A stretch of DNA of 64,000 nucleotides from Rothia nasimurium. GTDB lineage: Bacteria > Actinomycetota > Actinomycetes > Actinomycetales > Micrococcaceae. Shown here in pieces: positions 475-47,227 of the stretch. The translations under genes and the position numbers were made by a program. Location of the stretch: the NCBI RefSeq assembly GCF_014217215.1, contig NZ_CP056080.1, forward strand, positions 2,294,001 to 2,358,000, given 5' to 3'. The number at the start of each line of letters is the position of its first letter. Within the stretch, counting starts at the first letter, position 1. The notes beneath the pieces are model-generated. The model had not been told where the DNA came from. It did not search any database and saw nothing but the letters and a program-made list of their open reading frames with translations.

Positions 475-538
475 CTGTGCAGGGTTCTTGGGCTGTGTGC
501 AGGGTTTTCCCTGCACAAGCGCTAAGAACCCTGCACAG
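475..538. repeat. Nested hairpin repeat, copy 1
   Basis: Perfect 15-bp outer arms (CTGTGCAGGGTTCTT at 475-489 and its complement at 524-538) enclose a second hairpin (TGTGCAGGG at 496-504, TTTT loop, complement at 509-517). Related elements lie at 6695-6748 and 15891-15952. All three follow the 3' end of a gene, so a terminator-like or REP-like role is likely. The mcrC stop codon (522-524) and its last codons are inside this element. Confidence 0.8.
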
Positions 539-3456: not shown

Positions 3457-3752
3457 CTATCCTTTTCTGAGAATTTCCATCAGCTCCTCGTTCACGAAGA
3501 GCTTTTCTCTACCAACCTTTTCTTCCCGCAGAACCCCGACTGAGACAAGCTCTCCCAGGTACTTGGTTGCGGTCTGGCGGGTTACCACATAGCGGTTCCC
3601 CACGTCCTTAATGCGGTAGTAGGGCTGTTCAAAGAGAACCACCACTACACTCCGCTCCTGAAGGGCCTGAATCTGCTTAATCTTTGCCAGAGTCTGCACC
3701 GTGGTTTCCCGCATAGCCTCAACCATGTACAGCGTCCAACAGACCAAGTCAT
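3457..3752 (-). pseudogene. Deleted copy of fic (start region joined to C-terminal domain)
   Basis: This is a collapsed duplicate of the Fic gene at 5476-6567. The first codons (ATG ACT TGG TCT) are joined after a large deletion to the segment matching WTLYMVEAM near residue 255 of the intact protein, but out of frame. The remaining C-terminal winged-helix part is well preserved: KIKQIQALQE, VLFEQPYYRIKDV, VTRQTATKYLGELVS, VLREEKVGREKLFVNE. It also lacks the KERASSQMPLG segment present in the intact gene. The Fic catalytic motif is gone. Its upstream control region survives at 3769-3832. The remnant ends 5 bp before the mcrB ATG. Confidence 0.85.
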
Positions 3753-3768
3753 GTGCACAATCTATCGA

Positions 3769-3832
3769 TTTTTTGACGTATAGGCCCTCAAAACTGCTGA
3801 TATTTCAAAATTTTCGTGTTTTTGACAGGTTC
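3769..3832. promoter_or_regulatory. Duplicated fic control region, partly decayed
   Basis: TTTTTTGACGTA, then TATTTCAAAA and TTTTTGACAGGTTCC in the same order and spacing as the block upstream of the intact fic gene (6578-6668). The inverted-repeat arms have acquired mismatches. It lies upstream of the fic relic and hence of mcrBC. Confidence 0.6.
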
Positions 3833-3864: not shown

Positions 3865-5337
3865 CTACCCGACAACACCATAGACAGCCCCACGCTTCCC
3901 AGGAACATGAGAAGAGCTAATGAGCCCAGTGTCCTTGAGCTTACCGAGATTGTAGGCAACCTGCCGGCGGGTCAGCTGAAGCCCCTCCATAATTTCTGCG
4001 ACGGTTCGATCGCCACCCTGGAGCAGATAAGAGTAGATTTTCTGCTCAGTTTCTGCAAGCTCCAGAGGCGCACCGTCCTGCCCAGACTCAAGAAGCTGAG
4101 CTACTTCGTCCTTCTGCACGTCCATCGAAGGGCGCCGAATAATCACAGTAAATTGGAAGCCCTTATCTACAAACTCCAGCGGCGGCAGACCGGCCTGCCG
4201 CATGGCCTTTTGAGCCTCAAAAATACCGTTCCCTTCACCCTCAATCACCCTGGAACCATCAGAAATCTGAGCAAGTTTACAAATTTCATAGAGGGCAGAA
4301 TTAACCGCAGTTTTGTGCCCCGGTTGAGCAAGGTTGGCAGTAGTCACAGCCCATAATCCTCCAGGGTTAGTGATAACAATGCGATTGCGATAAACCCGAA
4401 TAACAACGTCTTTCGCGTAGGCAGTATCAGCGTCAAGGGCACGGTGAACCAGAGCATTCGCCACCAGCTCACGAAGCACAATGAGCGGAATCTCAGGCTG
4501 ATTTTTCAGCCCTCCCTGACCATCAGGAACCACAGAAAAACGAAGATTTCTTACTAACCATTGCAGGGTTTGCTCCAGCATCTCTACCAAGGGGCCGTCA
4601 GCTTCTAACTTGTCTGCGTTACGCAAGACCTCATCTTCAACCCACCCAGAAACTTTGAGAGCAGGGTAGAACTGCTGCGGGTAGTTACCCAGGGCATACA
4701 AGCCAGCCAGGGTCAGCTGTCGGTGGTTTGCTGTAGTAACGCTTTTGCGAGCAAGCACGACCTTGTCGTCTATCTGACTCAGCCGTTGCGAAGTATGCCG
4801 GGCAGCTGAAACAAATTTTTCAGTGTACCGCCTGTCGAGGTCTTCAGGGCTCGTGTGAGCAACCGCTTCAAGGTCATGCTGCCTGCGTTCCCGTGCAGCC
4901 AGAACACGGGTAATCTCGTAGTCGTCCATGGCGTAGTCGCCGTCGGAATAGCGCATGTAGGCCTTGCCCCGGTAATAGCAGGGGCGGTCAACCAGGGGGA
5001 GGGGCGCAACGCTCACGATGAGGACGGCAGCATCACCCACTGTTATGCGATCAAAGGTGGCGTTCCCCTTAGGGGTCAAAGAGTTTCGCAGGGCAGAGGC
5101 AATGGACTTTTCAAGTTCATCTATGTCATAGACTCCAACAACGGAGAAGTTCTCCGCTTCATCGATACCGCAGATAAGGGTTCCCCCGTCAGGCATATTG
5201 GAGAAGGCACAGAGGGTTTCAGGGATGCTGGTGGGGTAGCCTTCCGTTGCCTTTTTAATTTCGAGGCGGGGTTCTTCGGAACCGTAGGTTCTGAGCCGGT
5301 TCAGGGTCTCATTGAGATGTTCTAATGTCCATTCCAT
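3865..5337 (-). CDS. AlbA_2 / HATPase_c_4 ATP-binding protein with C-terminal winged helix
   Basis: A 490-residue protein. Residues about 5-130 form an AlbA_2 (Schlafen-like) domain with LEIKKATEGYPTSIPETLCAFSN and the glycine strand GGTLICGI. Residues about 285-405 carry a GHKL-type ATPase fold: N box ELVANALVHRALD (Asn294) and G1 box NPGGL (324-328). A C-terminal winged helix follows (about 428-490, TVAEIMEGLQLTRRQVAYNLGKLKDTGLI). Such proteins, often labelled RecG-like transcriptional regulators, are common near defence genes; their biochemical role is mostly unproven. I chose ATG at 5337; an in-frame GTG at 5355 is possible. No good Shine-Dalgarno is visible, so a leaderless transcript is plausible. 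Three ATGTACAT palindromes surround the start. Confidence 0.8.
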   Translation of the reverse strand: MEWTLEHLNETLNRLRTYGSEEPRLEIKKATEGYPTSIPETLCAFSNMPDGGTLICGIDEAENFSVVGVYDIDELEKSIASALRNSLTPKGNATFDRITVGDAAVLIVSVAPLPLVDRPCYYRGKAYMRYSDGDYAMDDYEITRVLAARERRQHDLEAVAHTSPEDLDRRYTEKFVSAARHTSQRLSQIDDKVVLARKSVTTANHRQLTLAGLYALGNYPQQFYPALKVSGWVEDEVLRNADKLEADGPLVEMLEQTLQWLVRNLRFSVVPDGQGGLKNQPEIPLIVLRELVANALVHRALDADTAYAKDVVIRVYRNRIVITNPGGLWAVTTANLAQPGHKTAVNSALYEICKLAQISDGSRVIEGEGNGIFEAQKAMRQAGLPPLEFVDKGFQFTVIIRRPSMDVQKDEVAQLLESGQDGAPLELAETEQKIYSYLLQGGDRTVAEIMEGLQLTRRQVAYNLGKLKDTGLISSSHVPGKRGAVYGVVG

Positions 5338-5398
5338 ATGTACATATATACACACTTATATACATGATGTACATGGTTTTGCACATTTCAATGTACAT
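5338..5398. promoter_or_regulatory. Three ATGTACAT palindromes at the AlbA_2 gene start
   Basis: Perfect 8-bp palindromes ATGTACAT lie at 5338-5345, 5367-5374 and 5391-5398, in a locally AT-rich stretch with TATATA-type -10 candidates between them. Their place at the start of a winged-helix protein suggests autoregulation. This is inference. Confidence 0.5.
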
Positions 5399-5475: not shown

Positions 5476-6567
5476 CTACCCTTTCACTACGTCACTCTTC
5501 AAAATTTCCATCAGCCCTTCATTCACGAAGAGCTTCTCTCTACCGACTTTTTCTTCCCGCAGCACCCCGGCTGAGACAAGCTCCCCCAGGTATTTGGTTG
5601 CGGTCTGGCGGGTCACCGAGCATCGGCCCACCACGTCCTTAATACGGCAGTAGGGCTGCTCGAAAAGAACATCCACTACACCTAGCGGCATCTGAGAGCT
5701 AGCCCGTTCTTTCACCTGCTCCTGCAAGGCCTGAATCTGCTTAATCTTCTGCAGAGTACTCACCGCCGTTATCCGCATGGCTTCAACCATGTAGAGCGTC
5801 CAGTCTTCCCAGGCCCCCTCAGAGGTCACCGCATTCAAGAGGCGGTAGTAGTCATTCTTCTGGGCAATGATGCTCTGAGAAATATAAAGAATAGGTTCGC
5901 TCAAAAGCCCGGAAGATACCAGCATCAGCACGTTCAGAATTCGCCCGGTGCGCCCGTTGCCATCATCGAAAGGATGGATAGCCTCAAACTGATAATGGGC
6001 AAGCGCAACCTTCACCAGTGGGTCAAAGCTATCAGCAGAGTTCACGAACTCTTCCCAGTTGCGTAGTTTCTCAGAAATCACGTCAGCACCCTGGGGCGGG
6101 GTGTAGATACGACGGCGAGTTACCGGGTTACCGATATACACGCCGTCCCCGTGTCTGACCCGGGTATCAACGTCACGGATAGTACTGCAGATTTCCCGGG
6201 CAGTGTTAGCAGTGATAATACCCTGACGCTCCCTCATCGCTTCAAGTCCAGCAAAGAGGGCTTTTTGATAGCGCAGGGCCTCCCTGGTCGCTCCGCTAGC
6301 CTCCGTTGATATCGTTGCTGCCTTAAAGAGTTCGTCGGTGGTAGTTACAATGTTCTCGATTTCAGAGCTTGCCTGGGCCTCAAGTAGGGCAAGAGAATGC
6401 AGGAAGATACCCGGATTAGGCAGGGACATCAGGGCCTCGTTCAACCCGGCTATAGTTGCCCGCGCCTCGATGACCGCCTTGAGTACGCGGGTAGTTTCCA
6501 CGTAGTCGACTGGCGGTAGCAGTGGCAGATCGTTGTAGGGTTCATCAGCAGACCAGGTCATGTACAA
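5476..6567 (-). CDS. fic: Fic-family AMP-transferase, self-inhibited (class II) type
   Basis: A 363-residue protein. The complete Fic motif HPFDDGNGRTGR is at 198-209 with catalytic His198, and a target-binding flap GVYIGN...RRIYTPP lies at about 142-158. An N-terminal inhibitory motif of the (S/T)xxxE(G/N) type is present as SSEIEN (Ser67-Asn72, inhibitory Glu71), so the protein carries its own inhibitory helix. The C-terminal region (about 270-363) is a winged helix (VTRQTATKYLGELVSAGVLREEKVGREKLFV). Fic proteins usually transfer AMP to protein hydroxyls; the target here is unknown. It is the first gene of the leftward block with the AlbA_2 gene, and its upstream region has an inverted repeat. 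A deleted copy lies at 3457-3752. Confidence 0.9.
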   Translation of the reverse strand: MYMTWSADEPYNDLPLLPPVDYVETTRVLKAVIEARATIAGLNEALMSLPNPGIFLHSLALLEAQASSEIENIVTTTDELFKAATISTEASGATREALRYQKALFAGLEAMRERQGIITANTAREICSTIRDVDTRVRHGDGVYIGNPVTRRRIYTPPQGADVISEKLRNWEEFVNSADSFDPLVKVALAHYQFEAIHPFDDGNGRTGRILNVLMLVSSGLLSEPILYISQSIIAQKNDYYRLLNAVTSEGAWEDWTLYMVEAMRITAVSTLQKIKQIQALQEQVKERASSQMPLGVVDVLFEQPYCRIKDVVGRCSVTRQTATKYLGELVSAGVLREEKVGREKLFVNEGLMEILKSDVVKG

Positions 6568-6577
6568 AATCTACCCA

Positions 6578-6668
6578 TTTTTTGACATATAAGCCCCAAA
6601 AACCGCTGATATGTCAAAAATTTCTGGATTTTTTGACAGATCCAAGTCACATGCTCAATCTTTTGACA
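6578..6668. promoter_or_regulatory. fic upstream operator: inverted and direct TTTTGACA repeats
   Basis: TTTTTTGACATAT at 6578-6590 faces ATATGTCAAAAA at 6609-6620 (12-bp arms). Two further direct copies, TTTTTTGACA at 6629-6638 and TTTTGACA at 6661-6668, follow. The block is duplicated before the fic relic at 3769-3832. The C-terminal winged helix of Fic or the AlbA_2 protein are candidate binders. Confidence 0.55.
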
Positions 6669-6694: not shown

Positions 6695-6748
6695 CAGGGC
6701 TCTTTGGGTGTGTGCAGGGAAAACTCTGTACACACCCCAAGAACCCTG
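6695..6748. repeat. Hairpin repeat, copy 2
   Basis: An imperfect long hairpin (CAGGGCTCTTTGGGTGTGTG paired with TACACACCCCAAGAACCCTG) related to the elements at 475-538 and 15891-15952. It lies just past the aminotransferase stop and upstream of the fic control region. Confidence 0.7.
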
Positions 6749-6768
6749 CACGCATTCGACAAAGGGCT

Positions 6769-15890: not shown

Positions 15891-15952
15891 TGTGCAGGTT
15901 TCTTGGGCTCTGTGCACAGAAAAACCTGCACAGAGCCCAAAAACCCTGCACA
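15891..15952. repeat. Hairpin repeat, copy 3
   Basis: Outer arms TGTGCAGG / CCTGCACA and inner arms TTGGGCTCTGTGCA / TGCACAGAGCCCAA give a stem of roughly 25 bp around a short A-rich loop. It is the most complete of the three related elements and sits between convergent genes, consistent with bidirectional termination. Confidence 0.78.
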
Positions 15953-43288: not shown

Positions 43289-44050
43289 ATGAGCACCCTA
43301 CATATTGATGTGAATTCTGATTCTGGGGAGTCCTTTGGATCCTGGACCATGGGCAACGACGCTGCAATGATGCAGACCGTCTCTTCAGCCAATATCGCCT
43401 GCGGTTTCCACGCGGGTGACCCCTCGGTTGCGCGTACCACCGTGCGGGCGGCGCATGAGAACGGCGTGACGATTGGAGCCCACGTTTCTTACCCTGACCT
43501 GACCGGCTTTGGCCGCCGGTTCATGGACATGACCGCTACCGAACTCACCGATGCGGTGATCTACCAGGTGGGGGCGCTTGAGGCGGTGGCCCGGGTTGAG
43601 GGCACCGAGGTTCGCTACTGCAAGCCCCACGGCGGTCTCTACAACGCTATTGTTCACCACGAGGTGCAGGCTGCGGCAGTAGCTCAGGCCCTGCACGAGC
43701 TGGGGGATTTGCCGATTCTCTGCCTGCCCAACTCTGCGGTTGCCCGTGCGGCTGGCGCCCTGGGCGTTCCTGTTTTTTATGAGGCTTTTGCCGACCGCGG
43801 CTACACCCCTGAGGGTACCCTGGTGTCCCGCCGTGATGCCGGTGCCGTGATCCACGACCCGCAGGCTGTGGCCGAGCGCGTGGTGCGCATGGCGGTGGAC
43901 CGCGAAGTTGTAGCCGTGGACGGCTCAGTTGTGCCCCTGCAGGCCGATAGCATCTGCGTGCACGGCGACACCCCCGGTGCAGTTGCTCTTGCCCGGCAGG
44001 TGCGGGCGGCGCTTGAGGACGCCGGTGCGAACGTCCGCGCCTTTGTCTAG
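43289..44050 (+). CDS. pxpA: 5-oxoprolinase subunit A (LamB/YcsF family)
   Basis: A 253-residue LamB/YcsF protein. The N-terminus [71 protein letters not shown] is near the family consensus. CKPHGGLYN and the C-terminal [18 protein letters not shown] also match. With PxpB and PxpC it hydrolyses 5-oxoproline (pyroglutamate) to glutamate with ATP. The ATG is preceded by TAGGCT about 7 bases away and no ribosome site, so the mRNA may be leaderless. It is separated from pxpBC by a 1.24-kb inserted cassette. Confidence 0.93.
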
Positions 44051-44086: not shown

Positions 44087-44154
44087 CCGAATGCGACGTG
44101 TTTTCCCGAGCGGGTGTTGCTTTAACGCCCGCTCGGGAATTCAAGTCACATTCG
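44087..44154. repeat. Palindromic end element, left copy
   Basis: About 68 bp. Outer arms CCGAATGCGAC (44087-44097) and GTCACATTCG (44145-44154); inner arms TTCCCGAGCGGG (44103-44114) and CCCGCTCGGGAA (44128-44139). It matches, in reverse-complement orientation, the element at 45257-45324. The stop codon of the DUF559 gene (44146-44148) lies inside the outer arm. Confidence 0.85.
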
Positions 44155-45066
44155 ACGACGCGAGCCTTCACGAATTCCAGCCCTCGCTAACTTTGCACGC
44201 AGGCGCTCAGGGTGCACCACAACGTCCTCCCATAAAGCGCGCACCACGGTATACCCTAGGCTCTCTAATTCGTGCTGACGGCGGCGCTCGTTCTGAACCG
44301 TATCCTCTGCAGCCTCACCAAAAGTACCCGCATACTTGACCTTCCCATCAACTTCCAAAATGACCCGCTCTTTCTCCCACAAAAAGTCAGGTCGCAAAGT
44401 TCTTCCACTAACCCATAAAGGCACCTGCTCCACAGGCGGCGCAAGACCCCACGTCAGGATCCAATACCGTGCCACAGTCTCCAGCGGCGACTCCGCCTTC
44501 ATGCTCATCAAACGGGCCACCTCACGCGCAGTACAAACACCACGACCGCTTAACTCCCTCAAGTGTTGGGCTAAAACCTCATAATCCACCAGTCGGCAAT
44601 GCAAAAAGTAATCGGCAATGCAGAGGGCATCAATGATCGGAAGCGTCCGCGCACAATCGATAGTCGTCTGCAGCGGCGATGTCACACGGGCTCCCCGGTG
44701 AAACACTGCACTGTCACACTCCTTCTGCCGGTTGCGGCTGACCTGCACCCGCCCTCGAGACTTAACTGAATCGTGCGGATGGCTCACCCATATTTTGTGC
44801 GGTAACCGCAGCACAGGGGCACCCCACCAGAGAGCGGCAGACACATGGCTCAACACATACCCCCGATTTGTTTTTATGAAAGCCACATGCCCGGCTAGAC
44901 ACCTATCGGTATTGCTCAGTGACTCCCATAAAGCTGTCTTTATATAGGCATTGTGACCGATTTTAAAGAGCTCTCCCCTAGCGCATTCACGGCTTACGCC
45001 GGAAGTGCTCTTACCCAGGTGTCTAAGCTCAACCGAAGTTTTGACAGTCTCAAACAAGTGTTCCAT
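44146..45066 (-). CDS. DUF559 (Vsr-like nuclease fold) protein with AbiEi-like N-terminus, cassette-borne
   Basis: A 306-residue protein. The N-terminal part (about 1-50) looks like an AbiEi-type winged helix (GVSRECARGELFKIGHNAYI). The C-terminal DUF559 domain (about 190-295) has a PD-(D/E)xK-like arrangement: Glu196 in SPLE, Asp227 in RPDFLW, then EVDGK with Glu238, Asp240 and Lys242, and a final NERRRQHELESLGYTVVRALWEDV segment as in very-short-patch endonucleases. The key acidic and Lys residues are intact, so nuclease activity is possible. It lies against the direction of the pxp genes and is enclosed by inverted palindromic elements that split pxpA from pxpBC. Function of this family is not established. 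Confidence 0.8.
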   Translation of the reverse strand: MEHLFETVKTSVELRHLGKSTSGVSRECARGELFKIGHNAYIKTALWESLSNTDRCLAGHVAFIKTNRGYVLSHVSAALWWGAPVLRLPHKIWVSHPHDSVKSRGRVQVSRNRQKECDSAVFHRGARVTSPLQTTIDCARTLPIIDALCIADYFLHCRLVDYEVLAQHLRELSGRGVCTAREVARLMSMKAESPLETVARYWILTWGLAPPVEQVPLWVSGRTLRPDFLWEKERVILEVDGKVKYAGTFGEAAEDTVQNERRRQHELESLGYTVVRALWEDVVVHPERLRAKLARAGIREGSRRRM

Positions 45067-45256
45067 GGGTTAAAAATGCCCTATACAGCACGTGCCTACT
45101 AGCCGTTTTCTACTATCTGTGGATAACTTTGAGGCCTAGCTGCGGTAGTTTGCTCAGGGCGAGAAGTATGACGTCAGTGCGTCAAGGTTTTCCACAGAGA
45201 TAGAGTCGCTGAGCTAGGCCCACCCCCGGTGCGTGCCCAGACGCATGGCTTCACCA

Positions 45257-45324
45257 CCGAATGCGACTCATCTTCCCCAAAGGACGTTAAAACAACACCC
45301 GCTCGGGAAAACAAGTCGCATTCG
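45257..45324. repeat. Palindromic end element, right copy
   Basis: Inverted relative to 44087-44154. Outer arms CCGAATGCGAC and GTCGCATTCG are perfect over 9-10 bp. The inner half AACACCCGCTCGGGAAAAC is conserved, while the opposite inner arm has decayed (TCTTCCCCAAAGGACGTT), so its inner hairpin is weaker. Confidence 0.82.
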
Positions 45325-45475: not shown

Positions 45476-47227
45476 ATGACCACCGCGCATACACCCGGCG
45501 GGCGCACAACCAGCAAGCGCGACGCCACCATCTATACAGTCAAGCCCTTCGGCTTACTAGCCGCTATGGTTGACTGCCGAACCCTCGAAAACGCCCTGCA
45601 CCTGCACGGCCATATGCAGCAACACCCTGCCGCAGGGCAGACCGAGCTGGTCCCGGCAGCCCAAACCGTGCTCGTCCGCTTTGAAACCACCCGGCAGGCC
45701 GCTGACTTTCTTGCCGCGCCCAGCCTGCCGCAGGCGTCCGGAGACGTACGCACCCACGGCCGCACGGTCACCATCCCGGTCGTCTACGACGGCCAGGACC
45801 TCACCGACGTCGCCACCCACCTGGGTATGAGCGAGCAGGCAGTAATCTACGCCCACACCACAGGGCACTGGTCGGTTGCCTTTGCGGGCTTCGCCCCGGG
45901 ATTCTTTTACTTGCACCGGCACGATAACGTGCTCGATGTTCCGCGGCGGGCTACCCCGCGCACCTCGGTACCCGCTGGATCGGTGGGTCTGGCCGGTGAT
46001 TTCTCGGGTATTTACCCGCGCACCTCCCCCGGCGGCTGGCAGCTCATTGGCCGCACGGACGCGCCCCTCTGGGACCTCACCCAGAACCCGCCCGCCCTGC
46101 TCGAGCCCGGTATGCAGGTGCAGTTTGAGGCGGTGCGCGAGCTGATTTCCGCAGGTCAGGGGAAGGGTCAGGACGCCCCCGCCCACCCCACCGAGGACGA
46201 GCGAGTATCTGCCCGCCCCGTACTTGAAGTGAAAGTTCCTGGGCTACAGACCCTCTTCCAGGATTCCGGTCGAGCGGGGCTGACCCACTGGGGTGTCTCT
46301 CCTTCCGGACCGGCTGACCGGGAAGCGGCAGCCGAAGCTAACCGCTTGGTCGGTAATTCTGCAGGTGCAACCGTTCTTGAGAACCTGGCTGGCGGACTAA
46401 AAATTACCGCCCTAGCCGACGTAGAGTTGGCCCTGACCGGGGCAGACACCCCGGCGCAGATAACCGAGGGCGCCAGCGGGCAGGCCGCTGACCCTGAGCA
46501 GGGCGCAGCCCAGGCGACAGACGCCCATCTGGCCGTTCGCCCCTACGCCCCCTTTGCCCTGAAGCCCGGGCAGACCCTGACCCTGGGGGTACCCGCACGC
46601 GGTCTGCGTACCTATCTTGCGGTGCGCGGCGGGTTTGCAGCTAGAACCGAGGCAGCGAGCGCCTCCCGCGACACCCTGGCAGGGCTGGGCCCGAAGCCCC
46701 TGGCGGCCGGTGAGAGGCTTTCGCTGGCTAGCCTGCCGGTGGCGGTGGTAGCTGATCCGGCACCCGTCCTCCCCCTGCCGGAACCGGGTAAGGTGCTGGA
46801 GGTCCGCGCCCTGCCCGGCCCCCGCAACGACTGGTTTACACCCGAGTCTCTGGGTCGTTTCGCCGAGGTGACCTGGGAGGTTTCCCAGTCCAGCGACCGC
46901 ATTGGGGTCAGGCTCCTGTTGGCAGATACCCCAGCCGACGGCGGCGCAAGCGCCCAGCCCACTGACGTCCAGCCCACCGACGTCCTTACCCGGGCCGTGA
47001 CTCGGGAGCTGCCCAGTGAGGGCATGGTAGCCGGGGCAATCCAGGTACCGCCGAGCGGTGAGCCCGTGGTCTTCCTGGCCGACCACCCGGTCACCGGCGG
47101 CTACCCCGTGATTGCCACGGTTCACCCGGCTGACCTGCGCCTCCTGGCCCAGGCTCCGCCCGGCACCCGTCTGCGCTTCACCCTGCTAACCCCGCCCCAG
47201 ACCACCCCTACCCTGATCGAAAAGTGA
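45476..47227 (+). CDS. pxpBC: Fused 5-oxoprolinase subunits B and C (KipI-KipA)
   Basis: A 583-residue fusion. Residues about 15-230 are the PxpB/KipI domain (FAPGFFYL...VPRRATPRTSVPAGSVGLAGDFSGIYPRTSPGGWQLIGRTDAPLWDL). Residues about 240-583 are the PxpC/KipA biotin-dependent-carboxylase-like domain (FQDSGRAGLTHWGVSPSGPADREAAAEANRLVGN, later QSSDRIGVRL and SEGMVAGAIQVPPSGEPVVFLADHPVTGGYPVIATV). Both halves are needed, with PxpA, for ATP-dependent ring opening of 5-oxoproline. Residues about 325-345 form a Gly/Ala/Asp-rich insertion. The stop overlaps the start of the biotin carboxylase gene. Confidence 0.92.
   Translation: MTTAHTPGGRTTSKRDATIYTVKPFGLLAAMVDCRTLENALHLHGHMQQHPAAGQTELVPAAQTVLVRFETTRQAADFLAAPSLPQASGDVRTHGRTVTIPVVYDGQDLTDVATHLGMSEQAVIYAHTTGHWSVAFAGFAPGFFYLHRHDNVLDVPRRATPRTSVPAGSVGLAGDFSGIYPRTSPGGWQLIGRTDAPLWDLTQNPPALLEPGMQVQFEAVRELISAGQGKGQDAPAHPTEDERVSARPVLEVKVPGLQTLFQDSGRAGLTHWGVSPSGPADREAAAEANRLVGNSAGATVLENLAGGLKITALADVELALTGADTPAQITEGASGQAADPEQGAAQATDAHLAVRPYAPFALKPGQTLTLGVPARGLRTYLAVRGGFAARTEAASASRDTLAGLGPKPLAAGERLSLASLPVAVVADPAPVLPLPEPGKVLEVRALPGPRNDWFTPESLGRFAEVTWEVSQSSDRIGVRLLLADTPADGGASAQPTDVQPTDVLTRAVTRELPSEGMVAGAIQVPPSGEPVVFLADHPVTGGYPVIATVHPADLRLLAQAPPGTRLRFTLLTPPQTTPTLIEK

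Follow-up and report, generated by a model that had tools for sequence, protein, structure and literature searches.

Why does a nuclease gene lie between two long palindromes in the gap between pxpA and pxpBC, and do the gene and the palindromes belong together? The locus is in a 64,000-nucleotide window (the whole stretch of DNA analysed) of Rothia nasimurium contig NZ_CP056080.1. The source genome (G000) is 2.53 Mb; among named genomes, those closest to it are Rothia nasimurium and two metagenome-assembled genomes of Rothia. We find that most of the related nuclease genes examined carry matched repeats at both ends, and that the type of repeat follows the lineage of the protein. We give roughly even odds (about 0.5) that these components would form a chromosomal nuclease-palindrome system, in which every AbiEi-DUF559 lineage goes with a single type of repeat, in the present case a palindrome of about 60 bp. 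An earlier, sequence-only reading of the window had described the gene as a cassette with palindromic ends; its observation is real, and the locus is one instance of a broader pattern.

The cassette holds one gene and its upstream region, enclosed by two inverted elements, as that reading described. The gene (44146..45066, minus strand) encodes 306 amino acids, and its upstream region occupies 45067..45257 (minus). Both lie between 67-bp palindromes of a family termed OG1: a left copy at the gene's 3' end (44088..44154), which does include the nuclease stop codon, and a right copy upstream of the gene (45258..45324). Over their 67 nt, the two copies show 84% mutual complementarity, and both are built of 31-nt arms around a 5-nt centre (arms 84% and 74% complementary). 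The elements had been given as 68 bp, which took in one extra C, and as sharing an inner hairpin; they are palindromic, with one inner arm of the right copy degenerate. Long palindromes are commoner here than expected by chance: a single fixed rule picked out 28 long hairpins in 464 kb of the source genome (stretches partly selected for holding such nuclease genes), whereas 120 kb of mononucleotide-shuffled sequence gave none. Of known RNA families, mir-642 was the sole match, far under its gathering score.

The protein combines an AbiEi-like region (residues 6-188) with a Vsr/I-Bth0305I-like nuclease (residues 191-300) in an AlphaFold model (pLDDT 93). The AbiEi fold is present in the N-terminal part, and the nuclease domain has the fold of the EDxHD homing endonuclease family. 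All 20 relatives compared share Glu196, Asp227, Glu238, Asp240 and Lys244; the earlier reading was right that Asp227 and Glu238 are intact, and the conserved lysine is Lys244, not Lys242. A Pfam scan of 20 members returned MTES_1575, AbiEi_4, DUF559 and one RAP match, and nothing else; the tyrosine transposase domain (Transposase_17) was absent from all 20. NCBIfam gave no family match for the protein. The gene is preserved intact under purifying selection in five relatives, and the AbiEi-DUF559 family was matched in 88 of 118 genomes of the class, the source genome included (E 1e-20), often several times in each.

These features raise the question of defence, in which the nuclease would attack invading DNA while the palindromes mark self or regulate the enzyme. 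The AbiEi-like part (PADLOC, best E 3.2e-05), the nuclease fold and the McrBC-family and Fic genes elsewhere in the window are in keeping with such a role, which nevertheless leaves the dispersed, lineage-private palindromes unexplained. Moreover, the given cassette, with pxpA and pxpBC as its neighbours, contains neither an AbiEii toxin gene nor any other partner gene, and we regard a defence function as highly improbable. As far as the AbiE type IV toxin-antitoxin system is set out in the relevant portion of PMC7319586, our locus differs from it in having the AbiEi-like part fused to a nuclease domain, in lacking a toxin gene, and in having repeats also downstream and at distant sites.

In hairpin scans, most nuclease genes of this family had similar palindromes on their two sides, and these differed by lineage. 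As a fixed measure, we took the best local alignment between the 600 bp upstream and the 600 bp downstream of each gene, with a pass threshold of 60. In the first run, 31 of 33 nuclease loci passed (33 of 35 were taken), compared with 0 of 58 pxpA/pxpBC control loci (58 of 60 taken; some pxpBC loci hold fragments). The larger set comprised 64 loci (L040-L074, L177-L205), which are best-scoring matches, mostly one per genome, rather than a random sample; after L060 and L191 were dropped for short flanks, 62 remained. Of these loci, from Rothia and other Actinomycetes, 53 passed (31 of 34 in the genus-centred set and 22 of 28 in the class set), and their repeats are mostly palindromic, with near-perfect hairpins in some families (L053, L067). 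Outer flanks passed in 1 of 59 controls (score 988), and flanks paired across different loci in 13 of 600, relatives included. The downstream copy mostly begins no more than some tens of bases from the stop codon, and the upstream copy stops 37-300 bp short of the start.

Carriage as plasmid or phage cargo was rejected, with two matching records among 72,556 from plasmids and one among 50,697 from phages. Both plasmid records, from Tsukamurella and Collinsella (another class), lie outside the 62 loci, and their flanks match with scores of 145 and 91; the phage record, whose gene ends were guessed, scores 34 and fails. Ribosomal-protein or glutamate synthase genes lie close to the match in the plasmid records (L296, Tsukamurella; L297, Collinsella), and these records may come from chromosomes.

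The type of repeat tracks the protein. Among 52 loci compared using shorter flanks (1326 pairs), repeats were alike in 23 of 23 pairs with a protein identity of at least 0.8, in 2 of 17 pairs between 0.6 and 0.8, and in 0 of 1286 pairs below 0.6. The Mantel correlation was 0.76, with 0 of 999 permutations as high, and 0.41 without the close pairs. This supports, although it does not prove, specific recognition of the repeat by the protein, and it is evidence for a link between nuclease lineage and palindrome. It is also difficult to reconcile with palindromes that are independent small elements moved by another enzyme, with the nuclease gene captured or self-protected between two of them: capture would not be expected to give every protein lineage its own repeat, and flanks are matched in 53 of the 62 loci. 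Such an origin would suit the palindromes present in genomes without the cognate gene, the mixed orientation of the flanks, and an AAA_14-DUF4143 gene with the same layout, but we consider it very unlikely.

Palindromes also occur away from the cassette and are not specific to it. In the source genome, OG1 is found at five places (four full copies and one half copy), two of which flank the cassette. Across 59 genomes, the source genome included, OG1 was matched in 10, all of one genus. Of the 43 places, 14 are at the cassette (seven genomes); the remaining 29, which include two half copies, are not. G012 and G014 each have four solo OG1 places and no cassette, and G005 has OG1 only as two flanking copies. 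The sequence-only reading had held that a palindrome occurring widely without DUF559 genes would speak against a cassette; taken literally, this is the case for 29 of the 43 places, yet it modifies the idea rather than ending it, because a REPIN-like or homing-site system predicts solo copies. Palindromes of a second family, OG5, whose nuclease gene is at G000:C1:2187388-2188266, are dispersed in 9 of 10 relatives searched, the exception being G005. In a distant genus (G043), one palindrome has two flanking and four solo copies, and none was found in four other genomes of its order. In the 464 kb scanned, 15 of the 28 long hairpins were assigned to nuclease-associated families.

Orthologous sites differ in their palindromes between species. 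At the OG2 site, G027 has a palindrome-gene-palindrome arrangement, and G011 and G033 have one palindrome each, of other sequence types; the latter genome has its own such nuclease gene at a distance of about 3 kb. In G005, the right flank is the same (the left flank was not found), and beside it is a nuclease gene with 53% identity to the given protein, in the opposite orientation and with its own palindromes. The solo-palindrome sites in G011 and G033 are candidates for the gene-lacking alleles that homing would use. At a second site (site A), G000 and G026 carry an OG1 palindrome, G005 two palindromes of other kinds, G028 a further one (left flank alone matched) and G018 a plain terminator. 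At a third (site D; L158, L278 and L276; window 6695-6758), OG5 and OG1 palindromes adjoin in G012 and G002, and G000 and G028 have OG5 only, beside 7-8 bases like one OG1 outer block.

These comparisons bear on a regulatory explanation, in which the protein would be an AbiEi-like autoregulator with the upstream palindrome as operator, the downstream one as terminator, and solo copies as further targets of regulation or further terminators. AbiEi antitoxins are described in PMC7319586 as binding to inverted repeats within the promoters from which they are expressed, and one palindrome does lie upstream of the nuclease start. Solo copies are a median of 13 nt from the nearest gene 3' end (39 of 52 measurable, many at orthologous sites; the other 13 fell, by a crude rule, within an open reading frame (ORF) of at least 100 aa), and the plain terminator at site A in G018 points the same way. 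However, a repressor requires no matched copy beyond the stop codon, the nuclease residues are invariant in all 20 relatives, one orthologous site holds different palindromes in different species, and G012 and G014 have solo copies but not the given nuclease gene. We judge regulation to be unlikely.

Is the palindrome conserved as a folded strand or as a sequence? We aligned 38 of the 41 full-length OG1 copies (L159, L164 and L171 were left out, and two half copies skipped), representing 34 distinct sequences. Among these, GAATGYGAC and TTCCCGAGCGGG stand out as almost unchanging blocks, separated by a spacer that varies. The evidence that base pairing is conserved is mixed and weak. Both partners had changed in 5 pairs, compared with 6.2 in shuffles, and pair types numbered 27, compared with 29.2. 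Paired cells made up 87.7% (86.7% in shuffles; 12 of 500 as high), those with changes in both partners numbered 26 (18.9 in shuffles; 24 of 500 as high), and the covariation score was 0.139 (0.130 in shuffles; 56 of 500 as high). The OG1 structure beats every slid version, as any palindrome would. We read OG1 as a site that is recognised as double-stranded DNA.

This has consequences for RAYT-like transposition, whereby the protein would move palindromes as folded single strands and the cassette would be the remaining full unit. Folded single-strand movement has been proposed for REPs. Their layout is also shared, going by the pertinent part of PMC2817692: a single gene, a palindrome on either side of it, and further copies that are dispersed. 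The near-perfect hairpins of some families and the slight excess of pairing over shuffles on some measures (12 and 24 of 500) fit as well. Set against these are the absence of a tyrosine transposase domain in the 20 members scanned, the shortfall in both-side pair changes, and conservation that falls on sequence blocks, not on pairing. We regard movement of this kind as quite improbable.

The gap between pxpA and pxpBC itself was compared across 35 genomes of the genus, G000 included. The left neighbour pxpA (LamB_YcsF; 43289..44050, plus strand) was matched in 26, as was the right neighbour pxpBC, a fused pxpB-pxpC in a single ORF (45476..47227, plus); a biotin carboxylase gene is also among the neighbours. 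The nuclease gene is intact at this site in G000, G002, G005, G011, G026 and G028, and broken in G027. The search for an empty site that the sequence-only reading proposed was successful: in G012 and G014, pxpA and pxpBC are about 160 bp apart, and the segment 44068..45348 is missing, with a 3-base junction overlap (GCG). Note that this segment extends 20 bp past the left and 24 bp past the right palindrome, so the palindromes are not the ends of the missing unit, and their being exact transposon ends was rejected here. In G018 (L143 4011-9090), roughly 5 kb of different DNA occupies the gap, and it includes the C-terminal remnant of a nuclease gene. By eye, this DNA also has a different long palindrome and ORFs resembling a phosphotransferase system transporter, a glycosidase and an antiterminator.

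Synonymous divergence (dS) from G000 for the nuclease, pxpA and pxpBC, respectively, was 0.166, 0.867 and 0.517 in G005; 0.347, 0.594 and 0.858 in G026; 0.09, 0.245 and 0.345 in G028; 0.212, 0.121 and 0.274 in G011; and 0.216, 0.199 and 0.56 in G002. The lower value for the nuclease in three of the five relatives fits a later transfer of the cassette there, though the region is mosaic.

How might such a system work? A protein dimer would bind the double-stranded palindrome through its AbiEi-like region, one subunit to each half, and the Vsr-like domain would nick or cut it. Through repair of the break, palindromes may be copied elsewhere, in many cases close to the 3' end of a gene, and the gene may be spread or kept between two palindromes. 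From the sequence comparisons, we suggest that the double-stranded form of its own palindrome is what the protein recognises and probably cuts. The palindrome-flanked nuclease points to a sort of selfish or mobile gene. We tentatively propose, at somewhat less than even odds, that Actinomycetota harbour selfish 'palindrome-homing' nucleases: AbiEi-Vsr dimers acting on a private double-stranded palindrome of about 60 bp, seeding copies near gene 3' ends, altering these together as the specificity of the protein shifts, and persisting between two copies. These would be a double-strand counterpart of RAYT/REPIN systems, built on an unrelated nuclease. For most members, the flanking sequence itself reveals a predicted substrate, in the form of the matched private repeat, which makes binding and cutting directly testable.

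Several observations weigh against a nuclease-palindrome system of this kind. Nine of the 62 loci score under the threshold of 60 (L069 57, L184 54, L072 53, L181 47, L196 39, L204 35, L193 34, L074 25 and L180 22), and repeats are barely palindromic at L177, L185, L198 and L202. Orientation is mixed among the 53 passing loci (31 direct and 22 inverted), so the inverted arrangement of the given locus is not a general feature. At least 15 of the 23 close pairs come from six orthologues of the given locus, and common descent thus explains part of the correlation between repeat and protein. A hairpin is possible, since pairing is slightly above shuffles on some measures. The empty site ends outside the palindromes and could be a deletion; because the region's gene trees conflict, gain and loss of the cassette, and their order, cannot be told apart. 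Different palindromes at one site would also fit terminator turnover. By eye, no constant target duplication was seen at other palindrome copies, and the GCG overlap at one empty site lies outside the palindromes. Finally, another agent might act on such units, because the unrelated AAA_14-DUF4143 gene is palindrome-flanked as well.

Known systems resemble the proposed one in part. Insertion sequences and miniature inverted-repeat transposable elements (MITEs) are likewise small units with repeats at both ends and short non-coding copies; here, no transposase family was found, the missing segment ends beyond the repeats, and no constant target duplication was seen. The mycobacterial 13E12 repeat family also ties actinobacterial nuclease genes to a dispersed repeat, and is a different nuclease family. 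The closest parallel in layout is RAYT/REP/REPIN, in which, from what the relevant portions of PMC2817692 and PMC3116915 describe, the gene of a DNA-processing enzyme lies between two copies of an intergenically dispersed palindrome, palindrome and protein diverge together, and orthologous genes hold their place. In contrast, our system has a Vsr-like nuclease and an AbiEi-like region instead of a tyrosine transposase domain, and a palindrome of about 60 bp. The REPs flanking RAYT genes are inverted, as at the given locus, whereas 31 of our 53 loci are direct. REP copy number is usually above 100 (PMC2817692, in the part that covers it), and OG1 is at only five places in G000. I-Bth0305I, an EDxHD (Vsr-like) homing endonuclease, dimerises on nearly 60 bp, a target length near that of the OG1 palindrome, by the account in the corresponding part of PMC3943268. 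Unlike it, the given gene is chromosomal, lies between ordinary genes and is flanked by matched repeats; an AbiEi-like region replaces the phage DNA-binding parts, and cleavage is only predicted here. By likeness rather than membership, the system could be placed with RAYT/REPIN.

No description of DUF559 linked to flanking palindromes was found in searches of the PMC literature, a scope that excludes most subscription papers and bioRxiv preprints, and in Pfam DUF559 is still a domain of unknown function. If true, the proposal would add a new kind of mobile or selfish gene and an independent invention of the REPIN-RAYT way of life. It would also identify a source of intergenic palindromes in actinobacteria, and supply many naturally occurring pairs of protein and target for the study of long symmetric DNA sites.

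The window contains three solo OG5 palindromes. One (475..538) overlaps the stop codon of a McrBC-family gene (522-1976), one is at 6695..6751, and one (15891..15952) lies between two ORF 3' ends. The second is followed by GCATTCG (6752..6758), possibly a remnant of the OG1 copy present here in G012 and G002, or else the state before insertion.

Other genes in the source genome are also repeat-flanked. Of 16 repeat pairs 0.5-4 kb apart in the 464 kb, five enclose nuclease genes, two (as separate rows) the AAA_14 gene, one a DUF262-like gene and one the Fic gene; the other seven are elsewhere. The AAA_14-DUF4143 gene (G000:C1:147009-148462; L257 7009-8462) lies between direct palindromes that are 94.6% alike over 74 bp, and one of the 15 hairpins assigned to nuclease-associated families adjoins it; no homologue was found in the other loci compared. 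At G000:C1:2234340-2236584 (L275), a 625-aa gene, DUF262-like by eye and with no family call, lies between 125-bp direct repeats that are 93.6% alike. One of these is, by eye, the 3' end of an ATP-binding cassette (ABC) ATPase gene, which looks like an insertion that restored the gene end. In the window, non-palindromic 94-bp direct repeats (3737-3828 and 6546-6639; 82% alike) enclose a 496-aa ORF (3865-5355) and the Fic gene (5476-6567).
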